A stretch of 64,000 nt of DNA, from NCBI GenBank assembly GCA_009746045.1, contig RPFO01000156.1, forward strand, positions 971,653 to 1,035,652. Reading direction: 5' to 3'. Origin of the DNA: Mesostigma viride (Eukaryota > Streptophyta > Mesostigmatophyceae > Mesostigmatales > Mesostigmataceae). The notes beneath the pieces are model-generated. The model was given only the letters and a program-made list of their open reading frames with translations, had not been told where the DNA came from and made no database searches. This document shows, piece after piece, positions 13,384 to 59,835 of this stretch. Within the stretch, counting starts at the first letter, position 1. Each line of letters opens with the position of its first letter. Both the position numbers and the translations under genes were made by a program.

Positions 13384-13388
13384 AAGGG

Positions 13389-32073: not shown

Positions 32074-32106
32074 TATGAGCCTGCACACATCCCTGAACCC
32101 TGGAGG

Positions 32107-35664: not shown

Positions 35665-36394
35665 AAGCTGAGAGCTGGGTGCTTAAGTCTCTGGATATCA
35701 GGCTGGGAGCTTGATTGTACATAATCCTGAGCACACCTTGAGGGGTGAGACATGTCTCTGGTGTGGGAATGTCTGACATTGTCTCTGATGGAGAGATGTC
35801 TATCTGGGGTTTTCATCTCAGTCTGAGGTTTCCCCAGATCTGTGGTTTGTGGGCGGGGTTCGATTCCCTGGTGCCGTCTTAAGGCGGAGTTTCACGGACT
35901 GGCTGACCCATCCACCATGCTGGTGAGGTGGCGACAGGTCCCCTGATTTTCCACGGTTGGAACGAGTAGGGAGCTTGTGTTTTGCATGTGCTTCGCGTAG
36001 ATGTTGTGTCTGGTTCGATAAGGGGCAGCAGACCGGCGCCGACTCCCGTCTGGGGGTCAGCAATGTTTTCTGATGAGCTGTTGTGGGTGATCTGTGGGGT
36101 TTCGCCTAAGGTCCTGAAGGTTGTACATACTTCTCAAGTTCTTAACTGAACACCTATGGGCTGCCACAGTTGGCCAACCTCTTGTACATGGGTAACACAA
36201 CGAGCCTCCCGTGAAGGGATAGGGACTCATTGTAATTTGTTTGTGCTCCTGAGCCAGTATGGGTGCTATGTACATATAATAAGGAATCCAAGCTGACTGT
36301 CATGCCCAGCGGGTTGTGACTTGTAGTCTGGGGAGGATATCCAGTACCCATTGTGTGTGTTTGTATGTAGACTTGTGTGAGCTGCTACAGCTCA
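35665..36394 (+). other. Copia-1 unit 1 3' untranslated region
   Basis: No coding signal. It is repeated in unit 2 (45,138-45,868) almost unchanged. The short frames here are not treated as genes. Confidence 0.6.
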
Positions 36395-36411
36395 AGAAAA
36401 GAAAGGATTGG
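36395..36411 (+). promoter_or_regulatory. Copia-1 polypurine tract (second at 45,869-45,885)
   Basis: A purine-rich run (agaaaagaaaggattgg) immediately before the LTR start agtta, the expected primer site for plus-strand DNA synthesis. The same form, aaaagaagaaagggttgg, precedes the Copia-2 3' LTR. Confidence 0.75.
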
Positions 36412-37108
36412 AGTTAACGCCAAGCGCATTGGCGTGATCCTGATTCGGCATATCTCTGCGATTCCAGCGGCACCGGAACGAGTTCATTCCGACAAGTATC
36501 AAGAAAGTTATGGCGTTCCGACTTCCCGGTCGCGCGCGAGCGCGAGCCGGCTGTTCTTCTAAGTCGGACGTGAATATTTGCCGACGACATATGGGGTCGA
36601 CAGTAATTCCTGGGCTGACAGGAATTAGGTGCTGTACCTACGACGGTATTGGATTAATACGTCGTACGCAGGAAATAGGAACCTTAACCTGTGGTCTGTT
36701 GGTACCGCAGGCTTAGTCCTGGACTTCTAGGTGCAGATGCAATAATCACTGTGGTGACTGTACTCTGTGGTCACTGTGCCTGTATGGCAGACCTACTGTA
36801 TAGGAGCTGGGCGCTGTACAGGTAGTGAATACTGTACCGGGGTGTTATTACTGAGCAGGCCTCCTAGGCTGCTCAGGACTAGCAAGCACAGTGCACAAGT
36901 ATATAAACAATAGGCCAGTGCCAAATGGGCATCTCTTGCGAGCCCGCCTCACGTGTTGTGCCTTGACTTGGCAAACGCGTGTACAAGCCTCAAGTGTGTG
37001 AGCGCTGTAACATTATCCAATTTAACAAAGCTCCGTTTCCAACCATATTCACACATTGCTGCATTGCAACCATATCCTTCACATTGCGTGTGCGAAGAAC
37101 GTTTAACT
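36412..37108 (+). repeat. Copia-1 LTR, copy 2 (shared by the two units)
   Basis: 697 bp, near-identical to the other two LTRs. It acts as 3' LTR of unit 1 and 5' LTR of unit 2 and has no TSD around it. Confidence 0.94.
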
Positions 37109-37205
37109 CAAATTACAACCAGTCTCAGCGGAACGGCCAGGAGGGTCGTTGCCGGTTGCGGTGTGCAGCTTTGACGACGAGAGGAGCTCGTCCGGTGGTG
37201 AATGC

Positions 37206-38342
37206 ATGGTGCAGGAGGAACAACGGCAGCAGGATTTCCGGTTTCGGCAGTCTGCTGGGGGTTCGATTTCTCCTGAATTACGCCGTGTCGTTCGGGATCT
37301 ATCTTTGTTGCTTGCAGATCGTCCGCCTGTAAATCGCAGCTTCGTGCAATTCGTCGACGACCAGGTCGAAGACTGGGAGCGAATTCTGCGACACGTACAA
37401 ACCATCGTCATTCCGGAGCACCGGAGCATCGGCGACCTTGAGCAGGAGCTTCACGGGTTGGTCGGCATCCAGACGGTGATTACTGCAGTAGCAGAGCGAG
37501 TGCGGACGGAGTTGGCAGCAAGGCGAGGCGAGGTTGCGGAGGCAGCTGGCGCAGGGCGACACGAGTTTGTGCCGACAGTAGCGGGCGCGGGAGTACCACG
37601 TGCTTTCGCAGGCGGCATCGGCGACGAGGGTGTTGCAGCGGGTCCAGTTAGGCGTGAACGACGCGGAGCGGAGCATCACAGGCGGCTTGCAGAGGTCGGG
37701 GCGACAGCGGAAGCCATCGCCGGAGGACCGCGCGCAACAAGAGTCGGCAGGTTTCCAGAGCGAGTAAGAGTTCCTTTTCAGGAACTGCCCCCGCCCCTTC
37801 GCGTTCGTGTGACGCGTTGGGAGGAGTTTGCACCTCTTAGGTACGAGAGTGACCTTGAGGCAGGAGCAGGGGGTGTCGCTAGGCTAGGCGACGAGGCACT
37901 CGGCGACCACGAGGTGCCAACGTACAATCCGCGAGGTGCCAACGACGGGTTGTCACCTGTCTACTTTACCAACGGTGACGATTCAGTCATCGCGGGCCGA
38001 CAGCGGGTCGACGACGGCGCAGCAGGTAGCAGGGTACCAGAGCTGATTGTGGTGAGCGACAGCGATGACGACAGCGACAAGGAGAACCAGGACGCGCCTG
38101 GGGCCAGCCGTGGTATTTATTTCAAATTACAACCAGTCTCAGCGCAACGGCCAGGAGGGTCGTTGCCGGTTGCGGTGTGCAGCTTTGACGACGAGAGGAG
38201 CTCGTCCGGTGGTGAATGGTGCAGGAGGAACAACGGCAGCAGGATTTCCGGTTTCGGCAGTCTGCTGGGGGTTCGATTTCTCCTGAATTACGCCGTGTCG
38301 TTCGGGATCTATCTTTGTTGCTTGCAGATCGTCCGCCTGTAA
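37206..38342 (+). pseudogene. Copia-1 unit 2 ORF0, first (duplicated) copy
   Basis: From Met 37,206 (MVQEEQR) it is nearly identical to 38,216-39,136 up to GASRG at 38,115. It then runs through the duplication junction into out-of-frame sequence and stops at 38,342. A 4-bp difference (aatgcatgg versus aatgg) lies at the start. It probably no longer leads into gag because the second copy intervenes. Confidence 0.7.
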
Positions 38343-39136
38343 ATCGCAGCTTCGTGCAATTCGTCGACGACCAGGTCGAAGACTGGGAGCGAATTCTGCG
38401 ACACGTACAAACCATCGTCATTCCGGAGCACCGGAGCATCGGCGACCTTGAGCAGGAGCTTCACGGGTTGGTCGGCATCCAGACGGTGATTACTGCAGTA
38501 GCAGAGCGAGTGCGGACGGAGTTGGCAGCAAGGCGAGGCGAGGTTGCGGAGGCAGCTGGCGCAGGGCGACACGAGTTTGTGCCGACAGTAGCGGGCGCGG
38601 GAGTACCACGTGCTTTCGCAGGCGGCATCGGCGACGAGGGTGTTGCAGCGGGTCCAGTTAGGCGTGAACGACGCGGAGCGGAGCATCACAGGCGGCTTGC
38701 AGAGGTCGGGGCGACAGCGGAAGCCATCGCCGGAGGACCGCGCGCAACAAGAGTCGGCAGGTTTCCAGAGCGAGTAAGAGTTCCTTTTCAGGAACTGCCC
38801 CCGCCCCTTCGCGTTCGTGTGACGCGTTGGGAGGAGTTTGCACCTCTTAGGTACGAGAGTGACCTTGAGGTAGGAGCAGGGGGTGTCGCTGGGCTAGGCG
38901 ACGAGGCACTCGGCGACCACGAGGTGCCAACGTACAATCCGCGAGGTGCCAACGACGGGTTGTCACCTGTCTACTTTACCAACGGTGACGATTCAGTCAT
39001 CGCGGGCCGACAGCGGGTCGACGACGGCGCAGCAGGTAGCAGGGTACCAGAGCTGATTGTGGTGAGCGACAGCGACGACGACAGCGACAAGGAGAACCAG
39101 GACGCGCCTGGGGCCAGCCGTGGTGGTCTTGCCTGA
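38216..39136 (+). CDS. Copia-1 ORF0 (upstream of gag), intact copy
   Basis: A 306-residue ORF ending about 100 bp before gag. Residues about 20-110 are helical (SPELRRVVRDLSLLLADR, DDQVEDWERILRHVQ). The middle is Ala/Gly/Arg-rich. The C-terminal 30 residues contain LIVVSDSDDDSD, matching a SUMO-interacting motif (hydrophobic core followed by acidic residues), overlapping SDKENQD, which has a KEN box like APC/C degrons. I recognise no catalytic domain. Because it is the first ORF of the transcript and precedes gag, it could be an accessory or regulatory protein. Standard Copia elements do not have it. Confidence 0.7.
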   Translation: MVQEEQRQQDFRFRQSAGGSISPELRRVVRDLSLLLADRPPVNRSFVQFVDDQVEDWERILRHVQTIVIPEHRSIGDLEQELHGLVGIQTVITAVAERVRTELAARRGEVAEAAGAGRHEFVPTVAGAGVPRAFAGGIGDEGVAAGPVRRERRGAEHHRRLAEVGATAEAIAGGPRATRVGRFPERVRVPFQELPPPLRVRVTRWEEFAPLRYESDLEVGAGGVAGLGDEALGDHEVPTYNPRGANDGLSPVYFTNGDDSVIAGRQRVDDGAAGSRVPELIVVSDSDDDSDKENQDAPGASRGGLA

Positions 39137-39238
39137 GTGGTAACACTTGGCACTTTCCTTTCTTGTTCAGTAGCTTATATTGCTTTAATTGCTGCTTGGC
39201 CACTTGGCTGGCTGTAGCAGATCTGAACAGAGGCCATC

Positions 39239-40060
39239 ATGGAGGATGGAGCTATCAACCAACAAGCGGGCTTTATGGGCTTCGGACGGCGCGGCGCTGG
39301 GCTGGATGGACGAGATGGACGCGATGGACGCGGTGGACGCGATGGACGCGGGGACGGCCAGGCGCTGGGAGACCAGGCTGAGGTGCCAGATAATCAGAGC
39401 CAAGGATCTCAGGGCGGGCAGCACGCGCCAGCCGCAGATCAAGCGGCGCCTAAGCGACCAACCGTTGCTGAGGGGTACGCGGTGCTAGGCCAGTTTCAGT
39501 CCATCAAGGACAATTGGCAGCCCCGGGATGCTGAAAGGATGTTAGAGGACATGAACTTGTACACGGAGATATACAACGGTGACAAGCTTCGCATCCTGGC
39601 GTCTAGTGCCTACATACGGCAGTCGGCGAGGCGGCTGTTCAAGTTTGTTCGGGAGCGACACGCGGCGGGGGACACCTGGGCGGCGTTTATGACGCGACTC
39701 AGGGTGTTCCTGAGTGACAAGAGGACCATAGATGGGTCCCACCTGAAGCAAGAATACCTGGACTACAAGCCCATCAAGGGACAACTAGTGGTCCACGCCT
39801 TTGAAGACTTCGTCAAGCTGAGGGAGGACGCCATGGCCAAGGGCTTCTTCGTCGCAGATCGGATGGCCATGGGCGACTTTCTCAAGTCGCTGCAACTGGA
39901 TCCGGTCACCATGGATAATGTGACCATCCACATGCGACAGGTCCATGGCTGGGCAGCCATGACGGATCAGTTGTATGAGTGTTTCAGCGGCAAGTACGTG
40001 GGGGTAAGCGCCCTCGTCAGAATGATGAGGAGGCCACTGAACCCACGGTTAAGTCCATGA
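39239..40060 (+). CDS. Copia-1 unit 2 gag
   Basis: 273 residues from MEDGAINQQ, which lies 50 bp after a TGTAG stop-rich leader and matches the unit 1 start. A GRDGRDGRGG-type repeat (residues about 25-40) is followed by a helical capsid region (about 85-260) with WQPRDAERMLEDM and LDYKPIKGQLVVHAFEDF. It would form the particle shell around the element RNA. The stop at 40,060 overlaps the -1 frame encoding the zinc knuckle. Confidence 0.8.
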   Translation: MEDGAINQQAGFMGFGRRGAGLDGRDGRDGRGGRDGRGDGQALGDQAEVPDNQSQGSQGGQHAPAADQAAPKRPTVAEGYAVLGQFQSIKDNWQPRDAERMLEDMNLYTEIYNGDKLRILASSAYIRQSARRLFKFVRERHAAGDTWAAFMTRLRVFLSDKRTIDGSHLKQEYLDYKPIKGQLVVHAFEDFVKLREDAMAKGFFVADRMAMGDFLKSLQLDPVTMDNVTIHMRQVHGWAAMTDQLYECFSGKYVGVSALVRMMRRPLNPRLSP

Positions 40061-40425
40061 GGGGATCGGGCCACGGGGGCCCAGCGTCCTCGAGAGGGCC
40101 TGAGACCTCTTCAAGGGGTCGAGGAAGGTCCAGGAGGGGGCGTGACAGAAGGGCTGGACGGGGGACCCCGCCGAAGTCGGGACATCCACAGTCCCAGTTT
40201 GACTTCAAGAGGGTGGGTGGTCCTCCCAAGGCTGGGCCCAGCAGTGGGACCTCACGGGACATCAGTCAGGTGGAATGTTATTTCTGCCAGGGGAAGGGTC
40301 ACTTCAGGAATGAGTGTCCCTCGTACCTGAGGCAGGAAGGTCAGAGCAAGCCAGCTCAGGGTGGCAGCAAGGACAAGGCTGGTCCATCCCAGGACAAGGG
40401 CAAGGGCAAGGCTGCTGATCATTGA
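39979..40425 (+). CDS. Copia-1 unit 2 nucleocapsid frame with CCHC zinc knuckle
   Basis: Identical in layout to 31,627-32,073: -1 relative to gag, five-G run in the overlap, CCHC knuckle, TGA stop and then pol in the same frame. Confidence 0.7.
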   Translation: MFQRQVRGGKRPRQNDEEATEPTVKSMRGSGHGGPASSRGPETSSRGRGRSRRGRDRRAGRGTPPKSGHPQSQFDFKRVGGPPKAGPSSGTSRDISQVECYFCQGKGHFRNECPSYLRQEGQSKPAQGGSKDKAGPSQDKGKGKAADH

Positions 40426-43400
40426 TATGAGCCTGCACACATCCCTGAACCCTGGAGGGTGCCCCCAGGGGTGTGTAATGAAGCTGCTAGTGACAGCAGT
40501 GAGGGGCAGCCCCATGCTCTAGTGAAAGAGCCTATTGGACACGATGGGGCAAGCTTGGTTACCACAGAGAGTATGCCAGCTGTAGCTGCAGTGGTTACTC
40601 GCCAACGTGCCCGCCATGGCGGTGCTGAGCCTGAGGTAGGACCTGGTGATGTGGACCCAGGTGGATCTCAGAAGCATTCTGACCGTGCAGGACTGGCACA
40701 GGATGGTCAGGATGAGGATAGGGCTGGAGACAGTCTGACAGGCACGACCCTGGTGCCTCCTGTACATAAGGGATCTGTACATACCTTGAGTGCTAATAAT
40801 GACAATAAAAGATTTTCTCTCTTGTATGACATTGCCTCAAGGTTGCATACCATGTTTGGCCATGCAGCTCAGTCTTTGCAAGTTGCTAGACGGCTGGGAG
40901 GAAGTGAGTTGTACTCCATCTGCCAACAGGTTGCTCAAGCTTGCAAGTGCAGGCTAGTTGCTAGAAAGCCCAAGCAGTCTCATGCCAGGACTCCTATTTT
41001 GCAGCCAGGCCATGTGCAGGTAGATATTCAGAGAATCAGGGGTTTGAAGCTGCTGGTGGCAGTGGACAGATATACCAAGTACAAGACCCTAGAGATCCTG
41101 CCTGACATGGAGAAGCCTACATTGATTGCTGCTCTGAAGTTGACAAGGAGCAGGTACCCTGGGTTGGAGTTGTTGCAGTGTGACATTCAGTTTGAGTGCT
41201 GTGAGAACCTGCCAGAGTTTCCAGAGTTGCTGATTACACCCAGGGAGAGCCACGGCCAGCAAGGGGTGGTGGAGAGAGCCATCCAAGAGATCAAGACTGT
41301 GCTGCTGGTGGAGAGGATTCCAAGGACGTCATCTGCCATTGTGACATCTGCATGGCTACGTTCTGTGGAGGACAGGCTGAACCTGAGGACTCCCATGTTC
41401 TTTGGTGACATTGCCATCAATCCTCTTATGCTGCATACCAGGATGCTGCCAGCTGATGCTGAGCAGGCATGGAAGGAGAAGCTAGAGGCCAAGTTCCTCA
41501 AGCTGAGGCAGAAAGACAAGGGCTGGAGTGTCCTAGAACCTAACGTTGGACAACAGGTTGTTGTGTGGAAGGAACCAAGCTTTCCAGGGAAACGTGGCAG
41601 CTGGCATGATGGGGTGGTGACCCGAGTAGAAGCCGCTGGCCATAAGTGCTGGGTGGCCATTGATGGCTCCCAAGCAGTGCACCGTCTGTCCTGGTCAAAG
41701 ATCCGTCCCCGGGGAGGTAATCAAGGAGACCTCTTCCAGGTGCCCGCTGGTGTACAAGGCGGGGGTGACGTGGAGCTTCCTGATCAGGGTGCTACAGCTG
41801 TATCGAGCCCTCAGGGTGACCCTGGCCCGGCCCCTGGGGTACCTTCACATACGGTGGTTGGGCAAGCAGGCGGACAGGCTGCACCTCCGGAACGGCCCGA
41901 CACCAGGCCTAGGGGTGTGCGTCTATCAGATATTGTACAGGCTTTGCAAAGAGCCAAGAAGGAGCCTAAGGTGTCCAAGCTTGTCCAGTTGGATGAACCT
42001 GAGGTAGCTGCCATGGAGATAGATACCAATGCACAGGTTTCTGTCATGGGACCTCAGCATACAGGAGAACTGCTGGTCGGAGAACCAAGTTGCCCCTGGG
42101 TGTCTGATTTCAGTGGTAGGACGCATCTAAGGGTGTTGGGAGAGGTTACTGCCCCTGTCATGGGTGTGGATGTGACCTTCCTTGTCCTAGAGGACTATGA
42201 TGGCCCTGTGATTTTGGGTCAGAATTTTCTGGGCAATCCTGGGATTTCTATCAGAGCTACAGCTCTGAGAAGAGATGGCTGGGGGATGATTCCCCTAGAA
42301 AATTTCAGGACAACATTTCCAGTCAGGTGCAGGGCCAAGCCGGTCAAGGGTGTAAAATGGGATGAAGGGGAGGTGCCCCCAGCGGCCAGTTTGGTTATTC
42401 CAGCTGTGTTGCACCCCAGCAGTATTGGCATAACTCACAGGAGCCTTGCTGCACACTCTCCTTTGACATATGACCAGCTGGTCCAAGAGATGAGCTCGCC
42501 TACTTTGTTTGAGGCTTGGAAGCTCGCCTTCTCCAAGGCATTGGAGGAGTGGTTGCAGTTTGAGTGTGCTGCACCAACAGACAGACGTCCCCCAGCATCA
42601 AGGAAGCTTGCTTTGAGATTTGTGCTGAAGAGGAAGGTTGTGGATGAGGTATCAGTGCCCCATGTCAGGCCTGTCCTGAATGAGTATCACGGCACGGGGA
42701 GTCTGCCAGGAGAGGAGCTATACACGCCAGGGATGCTACACGACACATGGAGAATTTTGCTATGTCTCTACGTGGGGTTGCTGAACAGGGGAGCAGCTAT
42801 GTCATCAGTGCTGCTGGACTTCAAGAGGGCATTTTTAAAATCTGATCCAGAAGTGGCCAGGAGGGTGTGGAAGCAGGATGAGCCTTACTGTGTTGAGGTG
42901 CCTGCCATCTGGAAGCTGGAGCTGCATCAACAATTCCTGGTTATTCTGAAGGGCCTGGAAGGACTCAGGTCGAGCCCAATCATCTGGAGACTCACGCTGC
43001 AGGAAGCTCTGATCAGTGAGTGTGGCTTGAGAGTGTCTTCAGTTGATCCCTGTTTGCTGCTGGCCCAATGGGAGGGTCTGCCAGTGTATGCTAGTTTGCA
43101 TGGAGATGATCTGCATTTGCTAGCCCCCACGACCTGGCTGAAGAAGTATATTCCTGTCATCAGTGGCAAGTTTTCACTGGGCAAGGAGCTGTGGCAGGAG
43201 CCCAACAAGCCTGTAGTGTTCTGTGGAATGCAGGCTACCCTGTTCAGGAGGGACGGGGAGTGGAGTATCAGGCTTCAGGCTGGAGGAGATTATAAACAGA
43301 CCATTGTGAAGGCCTTGCCAGAGAAGATCACCCAGGCTGCAGGACCTGAGTTGAGAGGCATGTGGGCCTGGTTTGCAAGCATCTGTGGTCCGTCTTTGAT

Positions 43401-43475
43401 GGTCCATAGCAGAATGCCTGATGAGGTGCTTGAGGATGAGAAGCCTCGAGTCATAGCCCGGTTGGTGGAGAGTAC

Positions 43476-44591
43476 AGTTATCGATTCCTGCGGAATCGAT
43501 ACTAAGCGCTTAGTATCGATTCCGCAGGAATCGATGTATATAACTAAAACTTTTGCTTGCGCCGGCAAGGCTAAGGCCGATACTAGTCGGGTCATCGAAT
43601 TGGCTATTCGATTATCGAAGTTGCCTATTCGACCATCGAACTTTCCTATTCGATTATCGAATTTTCCTTATTCGATTGTCGAAATTTCCTATTCGACGGG
43701 GGGTCAGAGGCCAGCGGCCTATCATACTCGGTGCCCAGCGAGCCACCGAACTAGGCCTAGTCGATTATAGCGAGACATCGCGTGGAACTTAGCCGATTTC
43801 GGGGACTTAGCCGATTTTCGGAGCGACGTCGAACAACACTGATGATTAGCCGGTTGAGCACATCATATCAGTCGAATAGCTAGCGCTGGTACTCGGCCTA
43901 GTAAGCGGAGAGCACTTGCCTATTTCGATTGACACATTAGGCCGAACGATTAGCGTCCGCAACGTTATTCGCATTACCAGGCGAAAAATCCACCCCCGGA
44001 ACGATCCTAGCGGGATTCGAACCCGGGATGCCGGCGTGTCGCAACAGTCTTAGTTATATACAACGATTCCTGACGGAATCGATACTAAGCGAATAACGTT
44101 GCGGACGCTAATCGTTCGGCCTAATGTGTCAATCGAAATAGGCAAGTGCTCTCCGCTTACTAGGCCGAGTACCAGCGCTAGCTATTCGACTGATATGATG
44201 TGCTCAACCGGCTAATCATCAGTGTTGTTCGACGTCGCTCCGAAAATCGGCTAAGTCCCCGAAATCGGCTAAGTTCCACGCGATGTCTCGCTATAATCGA
44301 CTAGGCCTAGTTCGGTGGCTCGCTGGGCACCGAGTATGATAGGCCGCTGGCCTCTGACCCCCCGTCGAATAGGAAATTTCGACAATCGAATAAGGAAAAT
44401 TCGATAATCGAATAGGAAAGTTCGATGGTCGAATAGGCAACTTCGATAATCGAATAGCCAATTCGATGACCCGACTAGTATCGGCCTTAGCCTTGCCGGC
44501 GCAAGCAAAAGTTTTAGTTATATACATCGATTCCTGCGGAATCGATACTAAGCGCTTAGTATCGATTCCGCAGGAATCGATGTATATAACT
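43476..44591. mobile_element. Foldback element FB-A, AGTTA...TAACT ends, 5-bp TSD agtac
   Basis: 1116 bp flanked by agtac (43,471-43,475 and 44,592-44,596). Terminal palindromes P (43,476-43,545, with a 6-bp internal deletion, and 44,516-44,591) consist of cgattcctgcggaatcg-type arms. Inside are 427-bp inverted arms (43,546-43,972 and 44,089-44,515), starting aaaac next to each outer P. The centre holds a tRNA 3'-half-like segment (minus strand, 44,010-44,051) and half a P (44,052-44,091). It reads as P-arm-tRNA-like-P with a partial inverted duplicate. No protein is encoded. Confidence 0.85.
44010..44051 (-). other. tRNA 3'-half-like segment in FB-A
   Basis: On the minus strand: aagac stem-like bases directly after the palindrome end TAACT, a short variable-like stretch, then cccgggttcgaatcccgct, a T-arm with the pol III B-box consensus GGTTCGAATCC. 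No 5' half, acceptor pairing or CCA is found, so it is not called a tRNA gene. Confidence 0.5.
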
Positions 44592-45137
44592 AGTACCCCT
44601 GATCTGATTTTGTCTGGGATTGACTTTACCCAGCCTATCACCTTGGAGATCTTTGTTGACAGTTCCATGGATGCTCGCCAGGTTACCAAGGTCAGGGGGA
44701 GATCTGCTGCTCTGTTTGCTTTTTATCAGAGCAGGGCAAGTTTGTTCAGCTGGTACAGCAGACTGCAGAAGAGGGTCTGTATCAGTTCAGATGTGGCAGA
44801 ATGCAGGGCCATATGCGAGGGGATCCAGTCCAGCCTGTACATAAAGGAGTTAATGCTGGAGCTGGCTTCAGTTACCCCTTGGGCCTTGCAGATGGAGACG
44901 TTGTTGCTAACAGACAGCATGGGTATGGTCCAGTTTGTTCACAAGCAGCTGGCCAGGAGCCGGGACCTGGATTATTTGTTGCTGAAGGAGTTGGCCAGTT
45001 TGGTTGACTTGAAGCATATCCCTGGCGAGGAGAACCCTGCTGATGCATTGACAAAGCTGCCACACAAGGCCCCAGCCCAGTACAATGTACTGAGGAAGCT
45101 CATGAATGCTGACTGTCAAGTCGGTCTATCTGTCTAA

Positions 45138-45868
45138 AAGCTGAGAGCTGGGTGCTTAAGTCTCTGGATATCAGGCTGGGAGCTTGATTGTACATAATCC
45201 TGAGCACACCTTGAGGGGTGAGACATGTCTCTGGTGTGGGAATGTCTGACATTGTCTCTGATGGAGAGATGTCTATCTGGGGTTTTCATCTCAGTCTGAG
45301 GTTTCCCCAGATCTGTGGTTTGTGGGCGGGGTTCGATTCCCTGGTGCCGTCTTAAGGCGGAGTTTCACGGACTGGCTGACCCATCCACCATGCTGGTGAG
45401 GTGGCGACAGGTCCCCTGATTTTCCACGGTTGGAACGAGTAGAGGAGCTTGTGTTTTGCATGTGCTTCGCGTAGATGTTGTGTCTGGTTCGATAAGGGGC
45501 AGCAGACCGGCGCCGACTCCCGTCTGGGGGTCAGCAATGTTTTCTGATGAGCTGTTGTGGGTGATCTGTGGGGTTTCGCCTAAGGTCCTGAAGGTTGTAC
45601 ATACTTCTCAAGTTCTTAACTGAACACCTATGGGCTGCCACAGTTGGCCAACCTCTTGTACATGGGTAACACAACGAGCCTCCCGTGAAGGGATAGGGAC
45701 TCATTGTAATTTGTTTGTGCTCCTGAGCCAGTATGGGTGCTATGTACATATAATAAGGAATCCAAGCTGACTGTCATGCCCAGCGGGTTGTGACTTGTAG
45801 TCTGGGGAGGATATCCAGTACCCATTGTGTGTGTTTGTATGTAGACTTGTGTGAGCTGCTACAGCTCA
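45138..45868 (+). other. Copia-1 unit 2 3' untranslated region
   Basis: Same sequence as 35,665-36,394 apart from single-base changes and a short indel near 45,442. No gene. Confidence 0.6.
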
Positions 45869-45885
45869 AGAAAAGAAAGGATTGG

Positions 45886-46581
45886 AGTTAACGCCAAGCG
45901 CATTGGCGTGATCCTGATTCGGCATATCTCTGCGATTCCAGCGGCACCGGAACGAGTTCATTCCGACAAGTATCAAGAAAGTTATGGCGTTCCGACTTCC
46001 CGGTCGCGCGCGAGCGCGAGCCGGCTGTTCTTCTAAGTCGGACGTGAATATTTGCCGACGACATATGGGGTCGACAGTAATTCCTGGGCTGACAGGAATT
46101 AGGTGCTGTACCTACGACGGTATTGGATTGATACGTCGTACGCAGGAAATAGGAACCTTAACCTGTGGTCTGTTGGTACCGCAGGCTTAGTCCTGGACTT
46201 CTAGGTGCAGATGCAATAGTCACTGTGGACTGTGCTCTGTAGTCACTGTGCCTGTATGGCAGACCTACTGTATAGGAGTTGGGCGCTGTACAGGTAGTGA
46301 ATACTGTACCGGGGGTGTTATTACTGAGCAGGCCTCCTAGGCTGCTCAGGACTAGCAAGCACAGTGCACAAGTATATAAACAATAGGCCAGTGCCAAATG
46401 GGCATCTCTTGCGAGCCCGCCTCACGTGTTGTGCCTTGACTTGGCAAGCTCGTGTGCAAGCCTCAAGTGTTGAGCGCTGTAAACATTATCCGATTTAACA
46501 AAGCTCCGTTTCCAACCATATTCACACATTGCTGCATTGCAACCATATCCTTCACATTGCGTGTGATAAGAACGTTTAACT
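45886..46581 (+). repeat. Copia-1 LTR, copy 3 (right end)
   Basis: 696 bp, ends gtttaact followed by TSD aaact and then LINE ORF2 sequence. Confidence 0.95.
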
Positions 46582-46586
46582 AAACT

Positions 46587-46896
46587 TGCGCGCGCCGGGC
46601 ACCGGCGCGGCGCGACCCGGACCTATGTGACACAACTGCTTGAAGATGCAGGGCTTCTGGGACTATCCGTACTCCGCGCCCGCATGATTGACAAGGAGAA
46701 ATGGGCTGCCATCTGCGATAAGCACCTTCCCGAGGGGTATGCTCCTGTTTTCTCCCCACGGGCCCCGCGGCCCGTTGCTAGCCAGGGTAGAAGTCCGCAG
46801 GTGGAGGTTATTGGTCCTGAGGATAGCCGCTACACTACCGCCTCGTCTGCCATTACAGTAGAGGACAGCTCGGATGAGGATTACATCCCCATCTAG
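46587..46896 (+). pseudogene. LINE-1 ORF2 C-terminal end after the Copia-1 insertion
   Basis: Continues the frame left at 29,080. It contains TYVTQLLEDAG and MIDKEKWAAICDKHLP, the typical last helices of such LINE ORF2 proteins. The end is an acidic tail ITVEDSSDEDYIPI and a stop at 46,896, followed by about 130 bp of 3' UTR and the acttactt tail. Confidence 0.8.
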
Positions 46897-47026
46897 TGCT
46901 TAACGGTTGGGGGATGATGCAGACGATATTTGTTTAAACTTTTGTGTAATTATTTTTCTAATGAGATTAGCATAGTACTCCGTGGCATGCCTTTGCGCAT
47001 GACACGCAAGTACTTACTTACTTACT

Positions 47027-47188
47027 TCACCCGGGTGAGAAACGTGTTTTCTCACCCATTCTCACCCCATTCTCACCCTTTTTTCTCACCTTTCTCACCC
47101 ATTCTCACCCATTTCTCACCCTTTTTCTCACCTTTCTCACCCTTTTTCTCACCATTTCTCACCCATTCTCAAAGCCGAGTTCCTAGTG
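47027..47188 (-). repeat. CACTA copy 2 right terminus and subterminal array
   Basis: Dense ttctcaccc repeats ending in aaagccgagttcctagtg, the inverted form of the copy 1 left end at 13,129. Confidence 0.85.
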
Positions 47189-47341
47189 CACTGCTCAAGA
47201 ACGGGAGCAGGAGGCAGCGAACCAAGCAGGTGCTGAGTCAGTAGCTGGGACGGTGCCCACGGCATCCTCCAGCGACGGCAGCGCTTGAGTCAGTTCTTCC
47301 TTTTTCCTTCGCCTTTATTGTCGTGTCCCCACTTGTATATA

Positions 47342-48697
47342 ATGCCTCGTGGCAAACCGGGCGACGGCGACAAGGGCGAGGCGGAGGCACCGGCTGGGGA
47401 GAGCCAGGAGCCTAGGAAGGACAAGGAGGCGCTGGTGGGAGAGGCGATCCCAGCCAGCGACGGCGATGGGGGCAAGCGGCCAGGGAGCAAGAGGCGACAC
47501 GAGGACTCGGTGGAGGAGGCGCGTAAGGTGCGGGCGACAGGGCCATCTGACGCAATAACGGTGGCGAATGGGCAACCAGCCGTGGAGAAGCGTAAGAGGG
47601 ACCCCTCCGCTGACGGCAATGGTAAGAGGCTTCATGTGGATGTGCTCTCCCCTGTGCCTGCTGGACCAAGTGGTGGTGTTGCTGTGACACCCGCTGTGGT
47701 GGAGCCAGTGAAGGCGCTGCCAGGGTCGAGGCCTCACATGAGTGCTGTCACTGTCATGAATGGGCAAAAGCCTCTTAACCCACCACTAGCACAGGAAGCT
47801 TTGGACAAGTGGCTAGAGGACATGGAGCTCGTTGTATTCTCCGTGGACCCCACTGTCAACCTAGTGCAAGTGTTTCACTCGTCCACGTGCAACAGGGACT
47901 CATCAGAGCGTGTCAGGGAGAAGGCTAGGACTGCTGTCAAGGATAAGCTAACCTGGGCACAGTTCCTGGATGGGTTGAGGGAGGAGTTCTCTGACAAGGT
48001 TCTCAACCTCACCAACTATTATAAACATCAGTATGACACCTTTGAGATAGTGGGTCCTGTGGCAGAGGAATGGGCTAGGCTCAACCGTATCAGTGACAAA
48101 GGGGCCAAGTATGGCTTCCTGGTCACAGATAGGGCCTTGGCAGACTATTTCCTGGACCGTATGGGTCTGAGTGTGGATGGTAGGAATGGTGCCCGCATGT
48201 TTCTTAACCAGACTGATGGCTCCTTGCGTGCTCTGGAGCTTGTAATCCTCAGCATAAGGAAGCCAGATCCTGCCTGCAAAGCTATCCAGTCCCATGGCAG
48301 CAATGCCACCTCCGCTGTGCAGGGCCAAGGTGATGTCCCCGGGTACCCAGCCCGTGACGGGGCAAGGCCCAACAAGCGTAAGCGCTTCAGGCGCCAGAGG
48401 CAGGGGGCTCAGCGTGGCAAGGGTGCAGGTTCCCAAGGAGGGGTTGGGGGCCAGCAAGCTGGTGGTCAGCAGGGTAAGGGTGGCCAAGGGCAAGGCAAGG
48501 GCCAAGCTCAAGGCAACCAGGGCAAGCAGGGTGGGCAGTCTCAGGGAGGCCAGGGGAAGCCTGGCAAGGGTGGGGCTGGGTCTGGGAAGAAGGGTGGAGC
48601 ATGCTTTGTGTGTGGCAAGGAAGGTCACTGGCGACGTGAGTGCCCTGACAGGAAGGCCAAGCCTGCTGGGGCAGGAGGCCAGTCTGGGCAGCAGTGA
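47342..48697 (+). CDS. Copia-2 gag with CCHC zinc knuckle
   Basis: The frame opens at 47,285, but MPRGKPGDGDKG at 47,342 is the more likely start; 451 residues. A charged N-terminal 130 residues is followed by a helical capsid region (about 145-315: LDKWLEDMELVVFSVDP, WAQFLDGLREEF, ALADYFLDRMGL). It aligns in layout with Copia-1 gag. Then comes a long Gly/Gln/Lys linker (GQGKGQAQGNQGKQGG type) and the knuckle CFVCGKEGHWRREC near the C-terminus. Unlike Copia-1, gag is one uninterrupted ORF. The stop lies 40 bp before the pol frame. Confidence 0.85.
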   Translation: MPRGKPGDGDKGEAEAPAGESQEPRKDKEALVGEAIPASDGDGGKRPGSKRRHEDSVEEARKVRATGPSDAITVANGQPAVEKRKRDPSADGNGKRLHVDVLSPVPAGPSGGVAVTPAVVEPVKALPGSRPHMSAVTVMNGQKPLNPPLAQEALDKWLEDMELVVFSVDPTVNLVQVFHSSTCNRDSSERVREKARTAVKDKLTWAQFLDGLREEFSDKVLNLTNYYKHQYDTFEIVGPVAEEWARLNRISDKGAKYGFLVTDRALADYFLDRMGLSVDGRNGARMFLNQTDGSLRALELVILSIRKPDPACKAIQSHGSNATSAVQGQGDVPGYPARDGARPNKRKRFRRQRQGAQRGKGAGSQGGVGGQQAGGQQGKGGQGQGKGQAQGNQGKQGGQSQGGQGKPGKGGAGSGKKGGACFVCGKEGHWRRECPDRKAKPAGAGGQSGQQ

Positions 48698-48734
48698 CTA
48701 GCTACACCATCCCCTGTAAATAGTCAATCACCCC

Positions 48735-49880
48735 TTGGGGAAGGTGTGCTGGATGTACATAAGGACGGGCTACGGCTTCGCAAGGCAACCCCTTTGCCCC
48801 TTGTGCAGCACCAAGGGTGTAAAGATGTTGTTCTTCCACTGGATTGCAATAACAATGCTGCAGCTGAATTCCCTATGCCTCATGCAGGTGGTGGGTCTCC
48901 AGCAGGTGCTGGCCTGGAGGGCCAAGGGACCTTGCTGGAAGGGCCTGGAGCGGTCCAGGGTGCAGGGCCTGACTTGGGGCGTCAGGACGACCTGCAGGGA
49001 AGCCCTGGAACCTCAGGAGTGGATCATTCATGTGTCCCCACACACGGTTCAGGCGTCTCACCAGGTCAGTACTGAGAGAGTGCTGAGCTATGCTGAGGCT
49101 GGCCATAGGTTGCATCACATGTTTGGGCATTCTGGGCAGGCAGCAATGTTTGCTTGGAAGCTAGGTAGGGAGCCTTTATGGGAGGCTTGCCAGGCTGCAG
49201 CTGAGAACTGTGGATGCCAGGAGAATGCTGTTCACCCACCTCAGTCCCATGCTAGGAAGCCTGCTAGGGAGCGTGGCGACATCCAGATGGATATCCAGCA
49301 TATCAGGGGCTTGTATATATTGGTGGGGGTGGACAGGTTCAGCAGATACAGGCTGATAGACGTTCTGCCTGGTATGCAGGAGCACCACTTGTTGTTGGGT
49401 ATGAAGGCCCTGATCCCAGGCTTTGGGGTGTGCAAGAGTGTGCAGGCAGACTTGCAGTTTGACTCTTTGCTGAAGCATCAGGACCAGCTGCCTTGTGTAA
49501 GCTGGTAGTAGTCCCCAGAGAGAGTCATGGGCAACAAGGGGCTGTAGAGAGATCCATACGTGAGGTGAAGACAGTGGTGCTAGCAGCAGAGACAGTGCCA
49601 CTTGTGGCATGCATCTGCCTTAGAGAGGGCAGCCTGGTGTAAGGGGATAGAAGAGCAGCTGAACCACAGGGTTAACTATTACTTTGATGGTGTGGCTGTC
49701 TCTCCCCTGGCCCTGCAGTATAGATTACTGCCTGAGAACGTGGTGCAGGCCAGTCTTAGTAGGAAGGCAGATAGGTTATTTGCCCAGCTGAGACGTAAGG
49801 ACAAGAACTGGAATATGCTGAGGCCTCAGGTGGGGCTGAAGGTCAGGATGTGGAAGGAACCATCTATTCCAGGCAATTAA
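48735..49880 (+). pseudogene. Copia-2 pol 5' part (integrase), with stops and frameshifts
   Basis: Frame pieces 48,735-49,508 and 49,602-49,880. HHMFGHSG and the C-x-C zinc-binding region precede GDIQMDIQHIRGLYILVGVDRF (first Asp) and VQADLQFD (second Asp). The Glu region (GQQGAVERS-like) can be read near 49,520-49,560 in another frame. WKEPSIPGN corresponds to WKEPSFPGK of Copia-1 integrase C-terminus. The first about 110 residues before the zinc-binding motif are poorly conserved. At least two lesions inactivate it. Confidence 0.75.
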
Positions 49881-50182
49881 GCGGGGGAAGTGGCAGGATG
49901 GGGTTGTCACTCGTGTGGAAGAAGCTAACAGATCTTGCCTGGTGGCTTTGGAAAAGGATCCAAGGCACGTGTACAGGTTGTCCTGGGCTCATGTCAAGGA
50001 GAGAAGGCCACATGCAATCTGCATGGCCTGCAGACGGGCCAGGCCCTCCCAGCTAGGTTGAGGAGCCAGGCCAGAGCCAGGCAGCAGCAGCTAACAATCC
50101 TCTGGTGGTGGATGATGGCCTGTCCCTGCTGGAAGATGACGAGCAGGAGGAGGCTGCTGAAGCAACTGTCACAAGGCCAGAG

Positions 50183-51231
50183 AGTTATTATAAATAGTGA
50201 CGGAACCTTTTTGCCACTTGGCAATTAGTAGGTCCGTCACTATTTATCCGGCGAAAACCACTCGCCGGTATCTATTCCGCGTTAAGTTCTCGTGAACGTG
50301 GCGCGGAATTGATACCGGCGAGTGGTTTTCGCCGGATAAATAGTGACGGACCTACTAATTGCCAAGTGGCAAAAAGGTTCCGTCACTATTTATAATAACT
50401 AAAACGTCGTATAGTGTGGGGGTCGATATCTATCATACCGCTGATGCCTACTGCAGTACCGAATCTCGCCTTAACGATATTCCAACCAGGCATATTTTCC
50501 CTTCTGGCACTTTCGTTTGGCCTTCTGGTATCAATTCCTTCCGGTATTCGGAAATACCCGTGTCACCACAGGGATTCGAACCCCCGACTTACGAGGTCTT
50601 AGTTATTATAAATAGTGACGGAACCTTTTTGCCACTTGGCAATTAGGTCCGTCACTATTTATCCGGCGAAAACCACTCGCCGGTATCAATTCCGCGCCAC
50701 GTTCACGTACGTGAACTTAACGCGGAATAGATACCGGCGAGTGGTTTTCGCCGGATAAATAGTGACGGACCTAATTGCCAAGTGGCAAAAAGGTTCCGTC
50801 ACTATTTATAATAACTAAGACCTCGTAAGTCGGGGGTTCGAATCCCTGTGGTGACACGGGTATTTCCGAATACCGGAAGGAATTGATACCAGAAGGCCAA
50901 ACGAAAGTGCCAGAAGGGAAAATATGCCCGGTTGGAATATCGTTAAGGCGAGATTCGGTACTGCAGTAGGCATCAGCGGTATGATAGATATCGACCCCCA
51001 CACTACGACGTTTTAGTTATTATAAATAGTGACGGAACCTTTTTGCCACTTGGCCATTAGGTCCGTCACTATTTATCCGGCGAAAACCCCTTGCCGGTAT
51101 CAATTCCGCGCCACGTTCACGTACGAACATTTTAGCGCGGAATAGATACCGGCGAGTGGTTTTCGCCGGATAAATAGTGACGGACCTAATTGCCAAGTGG
51201 CAAAAAGGTTCCGTCACTATTTATAATAACT
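50183..51231. mobile_element. Foldback element FB-B: three palindromes and two inverted arms, TSD cagag
   Basis: 1049 bp flanked by cagag (50,178-50,182 and 51,232-51,236). Palindromes P1 50,183-50,400, P2 50,601-50,816 and P3 51,015-51,231 are near-identical, each starting agttattataaatag and ending with its complement. Arms 50,401-50,600 and 50,817-51,014 are inverted copies of each other. Each arm has aaaacgtcg next to the outer palindrome and a tRNA 3'-half-like segment (gattcgaaccc...gtctt) next to P2. It has the same plan as FB-A with a different sequence. No ORF of its own; the frames seen here are mirror artefacts. Confidence 0.9.
50561..50600 (-). other. tRNA 3'-half-like segment, left arm of FB-B (mirror at 50,817-50,856 on plus)
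   Basis: Read outward from P2: aagac, ctcgtaagtc, then gggggttcgaatccct, i.e. anticodon-stem-like, variable-like and T-arm-like parts with the B-box GGTTCGAATCC. The 5' tRNA half is missing. Confidence 0.5.
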
Positions 51232-51236
51232 CAGAG

Positions 51237-53365
51237 GGGACGGGGCAGCCACCTAAGGCCCGGGGGCCTCTCATGGCGGACGTCATCCGAGCACTCATGC
51301 GCAGCAAACATGATCCCAAGGTATCCAAGCTCACGGGGTGGGGGTCGTGCTGGGCAGCTACGATGGAGGTAGATACCAACTCACAGGTGTCTGTCATCAG
51401 GGAAGAGGATGCTGTAGGCTTACAGATATCCCATCCCAGTTGCCTTGCTGTGTCTGATTTCTCAGGAAAGGTGTCCATGAAGATCCTTGGGGAAGTGAGT
51501 GTGCCTATCTTAGGGGTGCCCACCACGTTCTGTGTGGTAGAGGGCTATCAGGGGCCTGCCATTCTGGGTCAGAACTTCTTGTGCATGCCAGGGGTTACTT
51601 TGACCTCTGATGAGTTGGCACTAGAAGGCAGGGGCAGCCTCCCCCTTGAAAGATATCACTATTCCCAGGGTCTTGCAGTGGCGGTGAAGGCTGTTAGAGT
51701 CAGCCAGCTGAGGGTCCTCAAGGTCAGGAGCCCATAGCTGAGGACCTGTTGATAATCCCAACCACCTTTGATCCACGGCAGTTAGGGGTAAACAGGTACC
51801 AGATAGCTGCTCACAGTCCTATTCCCTGGCGCCAGCTAGTCGAGATGATGCAAAGCCCCAAGATGGCTAAGGCATGGACTCTTGGCTTTGTTGCTTCTGG
51901 GCATGAGTGGATAGTTTCCAACTGTGCAGAACCTGTGGATGAGCTGCCAGAAGTTCACCAGCTGCTCAGATTGATGTTTGTCCTCAAGCTCAAGGAGGTA
52001 GATGGTGTCCAGGTGCCACATGTCAGACCAGTTGTAACCGAGTATCATGGCACTGGCCAGTTGTTAGATGAGGAGCTCTATACTCCAGGGATGCTGCATG
52101 ACACGTGGAGGATTCTGCTGTGTATATTTCTGTCTTTTCTGGTTAAGGGTGTGCCCTATAGCTCTGTGCTGATTGATTTCAAGAGGGCTTTTCTCAAGGG
52201 TGACCAAGATCAGGCTAGGCAGACTTGGAGAGATATCCCTCCTTTCTTTGTGACTGTACCTGCTGTATGGAGAGCAGAGATAAAGGCCAGGTACCTGAGA
52301 ATTCTGAAAGGGTTGGAAGGTCTCAGGTCCAGTCCCATTATCTGGAGAAAGAGCCTAGAGAAATTCTTGAAGAATACTTGTGGGTTTTCTGTGTCTCCAG
52401 TGGATCCCTGTTTGTTCCAAGGGTCCCACAATGGCCTTCCTGTCTTTGCCTCACTGCATGGTGATGACCTGCATCTCATAGGTCCACCAGACTGGGTTGA
52501 GGCTGTCTTGGCTAAGATCCAGAAGCGGTTTGAGCTGGGTAAGATACAGCACATGGTGGAGAATGAGCCTATGGTCTTCTGTGGCATGCAGGCTACGTTG
52601 TTCCAAGCCAAGGGCTCGTGGTTCATCAGGATGGAGGGTGGTAAGGACTACCCACAGCAGATTGTAGATGCATTGCAGGAGCCCATCACGCAGGCTAGGT
52701 GTGCTACCATCAGGGGCATGCTGGCATGGCTTGCAAGTATATGTGCCCCTGACTTGCTGGTTTTGAGTCGACTTACTGATTCCCAGCTGGTTGAGGTGGG
52801 TGCTGAGAGTGTGGTGCAGGCTGTCATGATGTCTCCCCCTCTTATACTGGGTCCTGTGGATTTGTACAAGCCCCTTGACATGGTTCTCTATGTGGACAGT
52901 TCTATGGATAATAGGAAGGTCACAGAGGTCAGGGGCAGGGCAGCAGCATTAGTTACCCTGGAGCAAGATCACACCTCACTTGTTACCTGGTACAGTCGGT
53001 TGCAGAACAGGGTTACACCCAGCAGTGATATTGCTGAGTGCAGGGCAATCTGTGAAGGGCTGCATACTGCTCTTTACTTGAGGGAGCTCTTCTACCAGCT
53101 ATGTCAAGTGGCTTCCTGTAGGTTGCAGCTGCACACACTGGTGAGGACTGATAGCATGGGCATGGTGCAATTTGTGCACAGGCAGCTGGCCAGGAGCAGG
53201 GACCTTGACTACTTGTTGCTCAAGGAGATGTCCTACCTAGCTCACATTGAACATGTGCCTGGTGTGGACAACCCTGCAGATGCCCTCACCAAGCTGGAGG
53301 AGAAGGCGGAGAGGCAGTACCCCCTGCTCCGTGGGCTCATGGACCCCTTACACGGGCGGCCATAG
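51237..53365 (+). pseudogene. Copia-2 pol 3' part: protease-like - RT - RNase H, one frameshift
   Basis: Frame to 51,737: DVIRALMRSKHDPKVSKL, MEVDTNSQVSVI (candidate catalytic Asp) and AILGQNFLCMPG, the same retropepsin-like block as Copia-1 and again between integrase and RT. Frame 51,749-53,365 (538 residues): VLIDFKRAFLKGD, GLEGLRSSP, SLHGDDLHLIGP, then RNase H with VLYVDSSMDN, AECRAICEG, RTDSMGMV and NPADALTK. The frame changes once near 51,740, and the foldback element cuts the 5' side. The RT and RNase H themselves look intact. Confidence 0.85.
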
Positions 53366-54369: not shown

Positions 54370-55021
54370 AGTTAGCATTTTGGGCAACCAATATGCTAAG
54401 TGGATGCAGTTTGGAAAGACCTTTCCAACGCCGTGCTGACCGCCTGAAACAGACAAGGGACAAGAAAGATATGAAGTCCCGAAGTCCTAGCCATCCGTGG
54501 CCGACCGTATAGGGTGCAGTCCTCTGGTACAGTGGACAGGACACGTGGCAGGACGTACCTGCACAGGCTTAGCCTGTCTATCACGTGACTGTGGTCCACG
54601 TAGACCAGGAGGAGCAGCAGCCTGTGACTGGTGGGGTACTGGAACTGGCACAGCTAGGGCTGCAAGGATACTAGACCTTGCAGGCCTGTGACAGGTCCTG
54701 TACTTCCTAGGTTGCAGAGTCTAGGCAAATCCAGTTCGTCCTGGCTCTGCACTGATGCCAGTGGACGTTGAGGATTTGCTTGCACGCCTGCACGTGCCTC
54801 GTCACGCCGATGGGAACGAGGAACAACACAAAGGATATAGCTTGGTCATGAGGGATGACCAGCTATTTGGTAAGCACGAACCGTGGGTGCCACCTTGGTC
54901 GTGGAAGTGCCCACCGTGGTCGTGGCCTGGTGCATGGATTTAAGGTTGCTGCCTTGCAACATTGGCTAAGCCGTGCTGTGAAAGACCAAGAGCTCACACC
55001 CGTTGGGAGCTCTTTCTAACT
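54370..55021 (+). repeat. Copia-2 3' LTR
   Basis: 652 bp, near-identical to 19,254-19,898 with small indels at about 54,506, 54,652 and 54,866. Followed by TSD tgaac. Confidence 0.93.
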
Positions 55022-57197: not shown

Positions 57198-58460
57198 CGT
57201 CATTTAGTACTGTTTCCTATTTATTAACCCCTAAATGGTCTGGCTGCCGATTTTCCGCCTAAAACTGAGTTACAGCCGACACGTCGGCCCCTTCTCGGGG
57301 GACCAGATGCCGCGAAATCTATTGAGAATTAGGAAAAGTTTAGCTGAGAAGATCGAAAGTTTATAAAATTCTTCACAGCATGGTACTAGGGTTTGCATAC
57401 TTTTGACAAAGTTATAGAGGTGTTCTGGCCGGTCAAAGTACAAGGGGTCAGGGTACTTTTTCACGTACAACGTGCATTCCGGAAAACGACGACCTGGCCA
57501 TGGCGGCTTGCGCCCACGCATGGCATTTACGTTTGCGTTCGAATTTTCTGGCCAAACTTAGGATATTGATTTTAAACGTCCTAAAGATTATACAGGCCAA
57601 TTTTTGGTTCGCGGGAATGCCATTTGATAGGTGTCGGCAGCGTTCTTGCTGGAAAAAACTGCGATCAGGCCGGACGATAGAAACGTTGACAGCAATACCT
57701 TTCCGGCGTATTTCAAAGTATATATTGGTTTCTTTGTACTTTTTATGATACATAGTAGTCGTAAACGTGCAAGGGTGGCCAGAAATCGCCGAATCCAGCG
57801 ACCATGCTGCACAACTTTGGTGTGCCGAAATGCGCCATTTTGCGGCCACCGCCTGGGCCAAGGTAACGCCATCCATGCCTGGTAAAGCTTAAGCATCGTT
57901 TTCCTATCGATGTTTGACGTTTATATATACGTTCTAGCTTGTGTAGCACATTCTTTTTGCACTATTCATGCTCTTTCTTGACCCTGGCCTGGCCCCTTTC
58001 TAAAACACCCTTCTTAGATGCTTCCCTCAGTCAGTTGACCTGCCACAGGGTGATGGTGATAAGTTTTAGAGGCTGTATGGGTTTGAATACCTCCATATAT
58101 GTTTGTTATACATTTCCCATACACATATTGCATGAGTGTGAGGCAGTTGGCTGGTCTCTGTGGCATCATCAAGCACGTAACTGGTGAGTAAAAGCTTCCC
58201 ATTGACAGCATGTGCCACCAGGTGTGCTGGCCATCACCTGGCAAGCTATAGCAGCTTAGGCCTAGTTTATCCTTGCTAGGGCAGGCTGAAATAGGCTCAA
58301 CACCACTAGTTTGTTGGTGGCTGCCTCCTAGAATGCATGCCTTGCGTAGGGTGTCCGTACCACGTTACCTACGTGCATGGACAAGGTGGCACCTGCACAT
58401 AGGTGCCATGTAAGGGCAGTGTGATGATGCAGTTATGTTTCCCCATCATTGTGGAAGGGA
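57198..58460. other. No recognisable gene
   Basis: AT-richer sequence containing the left copy of an 18-bp inverted repeat (57,225-57,242). Short frames on both strands (for example 57,448-57,876 minus) have no recognisable domain. Confidence 0.4.
57225..57242 (+). repeat. 18-bp inverted repeat, left
   Basis: taacccctaaatggtctg, perfect complement of 60,857-60,874. ctgccgat follows shortly after in both. Possible terminus of a non-autonomous DNA transposon. Confidence 0.7.
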
Positions 58461-58879
58461 ATCGGGGTTCTTTGAACGGAGTTTCTTCTATACGTGAATG
58501 CGGGAACAAGAGGCCGCTGGATGAGCGGCTTATAGGTCGTAGTGTTTACTCGTAGCTGTTTGGCTAGAGCTTTTGTGATTAGTAGATGCAATATAGTGCA
58601 TGGTTGAAAAATGAATTAAATAAAATGTGCGTTCCGCGCTTGGGTTGATTATACCCGGGCGGAACGGGGCGTGAGGTGCAGTGCCCCTGAAAAGAACAAC
58701 CTACGCATTATTTAATACTAGCCGTGCAGATTCGGGATATTCTACCCCCGGTCTGTACGGTTAGCGTCTTACTAGCATCCACTAAACATAAGGGTTTAAT
58801 GACGTCAGTTAGCTAGGGATAAGGGAGGTTTTGCGACTAAAAGCCGCTCTGGCTGGTTTTGTCGGCCTCTTTCTTTGCT
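58461..58879 (+). repeat. DIRS-2 split repeat A1
   Basis: 419 bp, identical in length to A2 at 59,836-60,254. Confidence 0.9.
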
Positions 58880-59708: not shown

Positions 59709-59835
59709 GGGCAACGTACTTCATGAAGGGCCTTGAACGGCGTGCCTCCGGGCATGTCAATTAGTGTCACATGTATGCTTCCACTTATTGTTTTAATGAA
59801 GATGCTGGTTTTTGTGGGAGCTACGTGGGACATGA
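59709..59835 (+). repeat. DIRS-2 split repeat B1
   Basis: 127 bp, starting gggcaacgtacttcatg, repeated at 60,289-60,415. Confidence 0.9.

Follow-up and report, generated by a model that had tools for sequence, protein, structure and literature searches.

Here, we describe a class of short, non-coding elements in the genome of the streptophyte Mesostigma viride, found in a 64,000-nucleotide stretch of contig RPFO01000156.1 (hereafter, the window, to which coordinates refer unless a locus is named) and in a genome-wide survey of related copies. The unit of these elements is P-i-P, in which P is a palindrome of 78 or about 212 bp and i is an internal part that bears a tRNA-type B box next to one P. 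The elements start with AGTTA, end with TAACT, are flanked by 5-bp target site duplications (TSDs) and recur as inverted dimers, P-i-P-i'-P, where i' is the inverted copy of i. We put about even confidence in the reading that they are non-autonomous elements resembling long terminal repeat (LTR) retrotransposons, that the integrase of Copia elements would insert them in trans, and that their palindromic ends would cause fold-back copying.

Anatomy of the palindromic elements

Three elements of this class lie in the window, at 13,178-13,383, 43,476-44,591 and 50,183-51,231. Their coordinates, perfect AGTTA...TAACT ends and perfect 5-bp TSDs (AAGGG, AGTAC and CAGAG, respectively), as given in a preliminary description of the window, proved exact. 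Among AGTTA and TAACT pairs spaced 60-2000 bases apart in the window, 3 of 51 have matching 5-bp flanks, compared with 189 of 138,701 for all 5-mers. The same description treated the three elements as otherwise different in sequence, which has to be revised: the P sequences of the 13,178 and 50,183 elements align along their length, and the families to which the elements belong, denoted A (43,476), B (50,183) and C (13,178), share one plan. The element at 13,178-13,383 is a solo P, and the other two are inverted dimers, the 43,476 element with a truncated center.

The family C solo P is 206 bp long and perfect, with its TSD at 13,173-13,177 and 13,384-13,388. The family A element consists of P1 (43,476-43,545; 70 bp, the outer end six bases shorter than that of P3), an internal part on the - strand (43,546-44,051; 506 bp) with the head carrying the B box GGTTCGAATCC at 44,013-44,023 (- strand), the first half only of the central P2 (44,052-44,088), an inverted copy of i on the + strand that lacks the head (44,089-44,515) and is joined to P2 via 3 nt of microhomology, and P3 (44,516-44,591; a 76-bp palindrome); the two TSD copies occupy 43,471-43,475 and 44,592-44,596. 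The family B element is complete, with P1 (50,183-50,400; a 218-bp palindrome), i on the - strand (50,401-50,600; 200 bp; B box at 50,572-50,582, - strand), the central P2 (50,601-50,816; 216 bp), i' on the + strand (50,817-51,014; 198 bp; B box at 50,835-50,845, + strand) and P3 (51,015-51,231; 217 bp), between TSD copies at 50,178-50,182 and 51,232-51,236. The tRNA-type B-box head beside P, absent from the preliminary description, is present in the 43,476 and 50,183 elements and also in fuller copies of the 13,178 family (loci L034 and L035). The B box occurs 3 times in the window against 0.01 expected, and the junction motif GTYTTAGTTA 7 times against 0.08 expected, every one within the 43,476 and 50,183 elements. 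Insertion of the family A element into a Copia element arranged in tandem can be seen directly, given that the second internal copy of this Copia is unbroken at the corresponding position, with the 5-base overlap that the TSD predicts; a second empty site is provided by a Copia-type LTR that the L003 element of family B interrupts.

Several related families exist. In family A, P measures 76-78 bp in most copies and i 506 bp, the window copy being distinguished by its shortened P1 and truncated center; in family B, P is mostly 212-218 bp outside the window; and family C, represented by the solo P in the window, occurs as P-i-P in L034, L096 and L097 and as an inverted dimer in L073. The junctions are nearly invariant: P passes into i as TAACT/AAAAC in 57 of 57 cases in family A and 52 of 55 in family B, and i into P as GTCTT/AGTTA in 51 of 51 and 54 of 54 cases, respectively (counts per locus, duplicates included). 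In general, AARAC follows P on the inside and GTYTT (GTCTT or GTTTT, on either strand) precedes it, with no purine run there, and none of the junctions read starts with TGG after P. Read from the opposite strand, the unit begins with AAGAC, with the B box 28 nt (family A) or 18 nt (family B) further on, within i and outside the terminal repeat P. An A-box-like motif was recognized by eye in the P of families B to G; the promoter function of both boxes we presume from consensus motifs. The longest i among the units read is about 520 bp, and none of these units encodes a replication protein. In L041, around positions 1254-1344 of the locus, a mini i of ~17 nt built from both ends of i separates two family A palindromes and appears as the product of an internal deletion.

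ARAGORN detected no tRNA gene in the window, nor in the sense units when run in standard or intron mode; its metazoan-mitochondrial mode gave two doubtful matches in unit A. The Rfam search, which covered 43,400-51,300 only, yielded 9 matches, all under the gathering score; one of these, mascRNA/menRNA-like (21.7 bits against a gathering score of 42.5; E = 0.93), would place the acceptor strand within P and is suggestive only. A copied tRNA primer was considered as the source of the P/i boundary and rejected by reasoning, the orientation being wrong for a primer binding site (PBS). Two patterns searched against viral contigs gave 0 matches.

Genome-wide survey and dimer structure

The pattern TAACTAARRCN{5,40}GGTTCGAATCC matched the genome at 1665 places (825 + 840), with 0 matches for the reversed control; these genome match counts are lower bounds. 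Among the first 100 of the 1665 heads, about seven head sequence types were distinguished by eye; the loci read are a small part of the total. Within this sample, 28 heads stand alone and 38 pairs of heads lie less than 1300 bases apart, of which 34 are back to back round a shared middle, 1 has the opposite arrangement and 3 are in tandem. Between the heads of 32 of the 34 pairs with central heads, 68-208 bases remain, room enough for a P.

Boundaries were tabulated for 43 rows which, after removal of 7 duplicates, represent 36 distinct insertions (19 of family A, 12 of B, 4 of C and 1 of D, the three window elements included). Both AGTTA and TAACT ends are present in 34 of the 36, and an exact 5-bp TSD in 32, or 33 after one boundary correction, so that most copies carry the TSD and the AGTTA ends recur beyond the window, as the preliminary description required. 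The insertions without a TSD in this table are L052 (right end deleted), L055, L013 (which runs off the fetched stretch) and L035 (boundary later corrected). Thirteen loci outside the table comprise L043 (TSD GCCTG), L069 to L072 (damaged or cut, no TSD found) and L092 to L099 (TSD in 3 of 8), and with these added a TSD is present at 37 of 49 loci. Base counts over 32 TSDs revealed no strong pattern of target-site preference. The elements are real and numerous and, judged by their likeness, recent. Solo P's, P-i-P units and larger forms are all represented: a head-to-head inverted pair accounts for 22 of the 36 insertions and a direct dimer in which both internal parts are complete for 1, the others being monomers, solo P's and broken or tandem forms. 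A trimer (L049) additionally holds a tail-to-tail junction.

The outer P's of the dimers were compared in both orientations, omitting the window copy of family A and L052 (damaged outer P) and, in family B, L016 (a duplicate). Of 17 family A elements, 8 have outer P's that match each other exactly when aligned in direct orientation, compared with a mean of 1.07 in shuffles, none of 2000 of which scored as high. In four of these elements (L041, L046, L047 and L050), the halves of P are unequal and the match holds solely in direct orientation, whereas the two copies of i are separated by 1, 4, 3 and 7 events, respectively; identical ends round unequal interiors are a hallmark of LTRs. Three truncated dimers of family A stop at about base 37-40, 42-45 and 51-57 of the 78 bases of P2 and then continue into inverted i, with microhomology of 3, 3 and about 5 nt at the joins. 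The center of P is an imperfect palindrome, and its orientation is variable in the central P of family B.

Nine half-P sequences from families B to G can each be folded as two hairpins, with 92.5% of cells paired compared with at most 48% in slid controls, and compensatory double changes in these hairpins number 21 against 7.9 in shuffles; the sequences are mutually related and the fold was derived from their own consensus. Two further statistics of the same fold were not above chance, namely, pairs with a double change (6 versus 4.7; 111 of 500 shuffles as high) and further pair types (11 versus 11.1; 347 of 500). If a transcript started in the A-box-like region of one P and stopped at the T run of the following P, its last 30 nt would pair with its own 5' part, and extension of the folded-back 3' end would reproduce a further 30 nt of P, with a single mismatch. 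Such self-priming could regenerate part of P; the possibility is inherent in the palindrome and provides no independent proof.

Copia elements and other features of the window

Two Copia elements lie on the + strand of the window. The tandem Copia (29,081-46,581; LTRs at 29,081-29,774, 36,412-37,108 and 45,886-46,581) has AGTTAA...TTAACT ends and the TSD AAACT and hosts the family A element, and the second Copia (19,254-55,021; LTRs at 19,254-19,898 and 54,370-55,021), spread by nested insertions, has AGTTAG...CTAACT ends and the TSD TGAAC and hosts the family B element; for both, the ends and TSDs initially reported hold. From 40 scored copies of the LTR start of the first family (1026 candidates), seven pairs 7-9 kb apart were chosen and their outer flanks were read, and all seven have AGTTA...TAACT ends and, by eye, perfect TSDs (GACAC, CTGTA, GCAGC, AACAG, GGAGG, ATAAC and ATACT). 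The palindromic elements share terminal bases and TSD length with the Copia elements of the same genome. LTR ends of the AG...CT rather than TG...CA type are unusual, which makes this sharing more telling.

Pfam lends the Copia label little support: RVT_2 scores 23.9 bits (cut-off 31.6) in the second element, and the long frame of the first matches no family; the reverse transcriptase stretch of the first is, in DNA, 64% alike to that of the second. One Copia reading frame in the window is 100% identical, over 68% of the query, to a protein designated jgi/Mesvir1 by its source. A self-BLAST of the window reported no similarity between the internal parts i and the Copia elements. The frame of the second Copia (51,749-53,365) encodes a product 87% identical over 58% to a protein of Prorocentrum lima, which points to transfer or contamination. 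Inverted repeat arms of 1.9 kb (13,492-15,395 and 22,397-24,274), 98% alike and about 7 kb apart, enclose the 5' LTR of this Copia and resemble a large foldback element or one with terminal inverted repeats (TIRs).

Other repeats in the window include a degenerate GGGTGAGAAA-type minisatellite at 13,384-13,700, 17,129-17,404, 21,131-21,406, 24,100-24,274 and 47,027-47,171, one array being located around the solo P, and two interleaved pairs of 100% identical direct repeats (58,459-58,879 with 59,834-60,254, and 59,709-59,836 with 60,289-60,416). Two frames at 25,774-28,407 resemble, by eye and in translation, the endonuclease and reverse transcriptase of non-LTR elements.

Origin of the elements and alternative explanations

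In the reading to which we give about even confidence, P would be a palindromic terminal repeat in the role of an LTR. The B box of the putatively tRNA-derived head, together with the A-box-like motif in the P of the larger families, would probably drive transcription by RNA polymerase III, and the transcript would be converted to DNA by the reverse transcriptase of a retrotransposon. The palindromic sequence would allow the growing strand to fold back where it ends, at the head-side P, and the unit would be copied in reverse, yielding inverted dimers; the start of fold-back at the head-side end is offered as the explanation of why the heads meet at the dimer center. Copia integrase would then insert the product through the AGTTA/TAACT ends, with the 5-bp TSD.

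Several observations weigh against this reading, and most of them fit foldback DNA transposons, that is, elements similar to miniature inverted-repeat transposable elements (MITEs) with long, internally palindromic TIRs, which would be moved by a DDE transposase making 5-bp TSDs, with the AGTTA match to Copia a coincidence and the dimers produced by strand switching at hairpins in repair or replication. Foldback elements and MITEs (of the FB, Galileo and Tetris type) combine long inverted symmetry, absence of coding capacity and constant TSD length, all of which are seen here, inverted symmetry overall included, although the palindromic nature of P makes the presence of TIRs trivial. In six families, the head recurs at the far end of i in inverted and decayed form over about 25-30 nt, a TIR-like feature not matched by any of 300 shuffles in families B, C, D, E and G and by 4 of 300 in family A. 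The outer P's of family B are mirror images at 9 of 9 loci (8 distinct insertions, L024 being a copy of the L010 insertion), exactly so at 4 of 9, compared with 1.82 in shuffles (54 of 2000 as high), and are direct repeats at 0 of 9; such mirror-image P's are explained as well by a TIR as by fold-back of a single P-i-P unit. Exact inverted identity also occurs in family A (4 of 17 against 0.59 in shuffles), in four symmetric cases that match both ways. The sequences beside P are unlike those beside the Copia LTRs, so that no shared PBS or polypurine tract (PPT) is seen, the link to Copia consists of five terminal bases and the TSD length, family A has no A-box-like motif by eye, and the covariation indicates that the single-strand fold of P matters, be it as RNA or DNA. 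We consider DNA transposition less likely, but possible: asymmetric outer P's are directly identical in four family A dimers, the end match extends over three bases and more to LTRs in the same genome, and each terminal repeat is itself a palindrome able to stand alone with a TSD, unlike in foldback elements or MITEs. To our knowledge, few described superfamilies of DNA transposons make 5-bp TSDs. No long element with P ends, the candidate for an autonomous partner, was present at the 12 single-head loci read (4 + 8), a weak negative given without a genome-wide search. Of the original proposal of miniature retroelements with palindromic LTRs moved in trans, several parts find support: a class that recurs across the genome with AGTTA/TAACT ends and 5-bp TSDs, the existence of solo P, P-i-P and larger forms, and the outer P's of family A, which are direct repeats as LTRs are. 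The use of Copia integrase has five shared terminal bases and the TSD length behind it, the sequences beside P differ and the P's of family B are mirrored, so that "miniature retroelement" is likely, but not more.

The closest described elements, as far as the account in PMC10886601 goes, are TRIMp3, above all Helenus, which has a tRNA-type sequence in the LTR, whereas Cassandra and Ajax have the 5S type. As described there, these elements are likewise short and non-coding, with terminal repeats at both ends, solo terminal repeats, a small-RNA-type promoter motif, a 5-bp TSD (fungal and plant Helenus) and a presumed dependence on LTR retrotransposons, Copia being suggested as the partner of fungal Helenus (PMC10886601). 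Helenus possesses a PBS and a PPT and the tRNA-like sequence within the LTR (PMC10886601), in contrast to the palindromic P, the B box in i and the frequent inverted dimers found here, where no such PBS or PPT was seen. The words "palindrom", "inverted" and "hairpin" are absent from the main text of that paper. The lack of a PPT and the location of the B box outside the terminal repeat are the reasons not to file the elements as Helenus; in their mode of action they may nonetheless resemble TRIMp3. It is improbable, however, that they are ordinary Helenus-like TRIMp3 replicated by tRNA-primed, PPT-dependent LTR synthesis, with the palindrome an accident of one lineage and the dimers made by recombination. 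Such an origin would account for short, non-coding elements with a polymerase III motif, direct terminal repeats in family A and the 5-bp TSD shared with plant and fungal Helenus (PMC10886601), but GTYTT instead of a purine tract precedes the inner P, AARAC and not TGG follows P, unlike in the window Copia elements (the comparison covers TGG and the Copia junctions; in fungal Helenus the complementarity is to tRNA anticodon arms), P is palindromic with covarying hairpins across families B to G, and heads-in polarity in 34 of 38 pairs is not expected from recombination. Slightly less credible still are hairpin replicons, in which P would be the replicated palindromic junction of linear DNA with hairpin ends (parvovirus, poxvirus or protelomerase-like) that was subsequently inserted by an integrase. 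Copying round a hairpin end would yield P-i-P-i'-P, and the imperfect center of P, variably oriented in the central P of family B, and the folding of its halves agree with this; the absence of a replication protein from units with so short an i and the directly identical outer P's of family A do not. An assembly artefact, whereby unsplit long reads would yield inverted units, is conceivable in that PacBio reads went into the published assembly (PMC6947507), but has virtually no chance of being correct: an unsplit read would mirror the flanks too, whereas the left and right flanks of these AGTTA-bounded inverted units are unlike, with a 5-bp TSD in 32 of 36, and empty sites exist.

Compared with tRNA-derived short interspersed elements, the palindromic elements have in common a B-box head, apparently tRNA-related, the absence of coding sequence and GTTTT at the other end of i. 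They differ in the constant, rather than variable, 5-bp TSD, in terminal repeats P at both ends in place of a 3' tail of the long interspersed element type, and in the inverted dimers. No palindromic-LTR element of this plan is evident in the literature matching such phrases, and a description elsewhere in print is possible. Two M. viride genome papers (one PMC6947507) name MITE and LTR annotation tools, and "palindrom" occurs in neither main text.

We also entertain, tentatively, a retroelement of another kind, the palindromic LTR of which would be made by self-priming, when the end of the RNA or of the first cDNA strand folds onto its own other end; a borrowed Copia integrase would again insert the product. 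One half of P would then have been copied from the other, inverted dimers would be a normal product, and, because of self-priming, neither a tRNA primer nor a PPT would be required.

If these readings are correct, about five terminal bases would suffice to borrow an integrase, and palindromic ends would replace the tRNA primer and the PPT, both of which are considered essential to LTR replication. Such elements are probably divided between the MITE and LTR classes in current annotation. They would open a route from retroelements to hairpin elements that resemble DNA MITEs and would provide a high-copy natural system of fold-back DNA synthesis.

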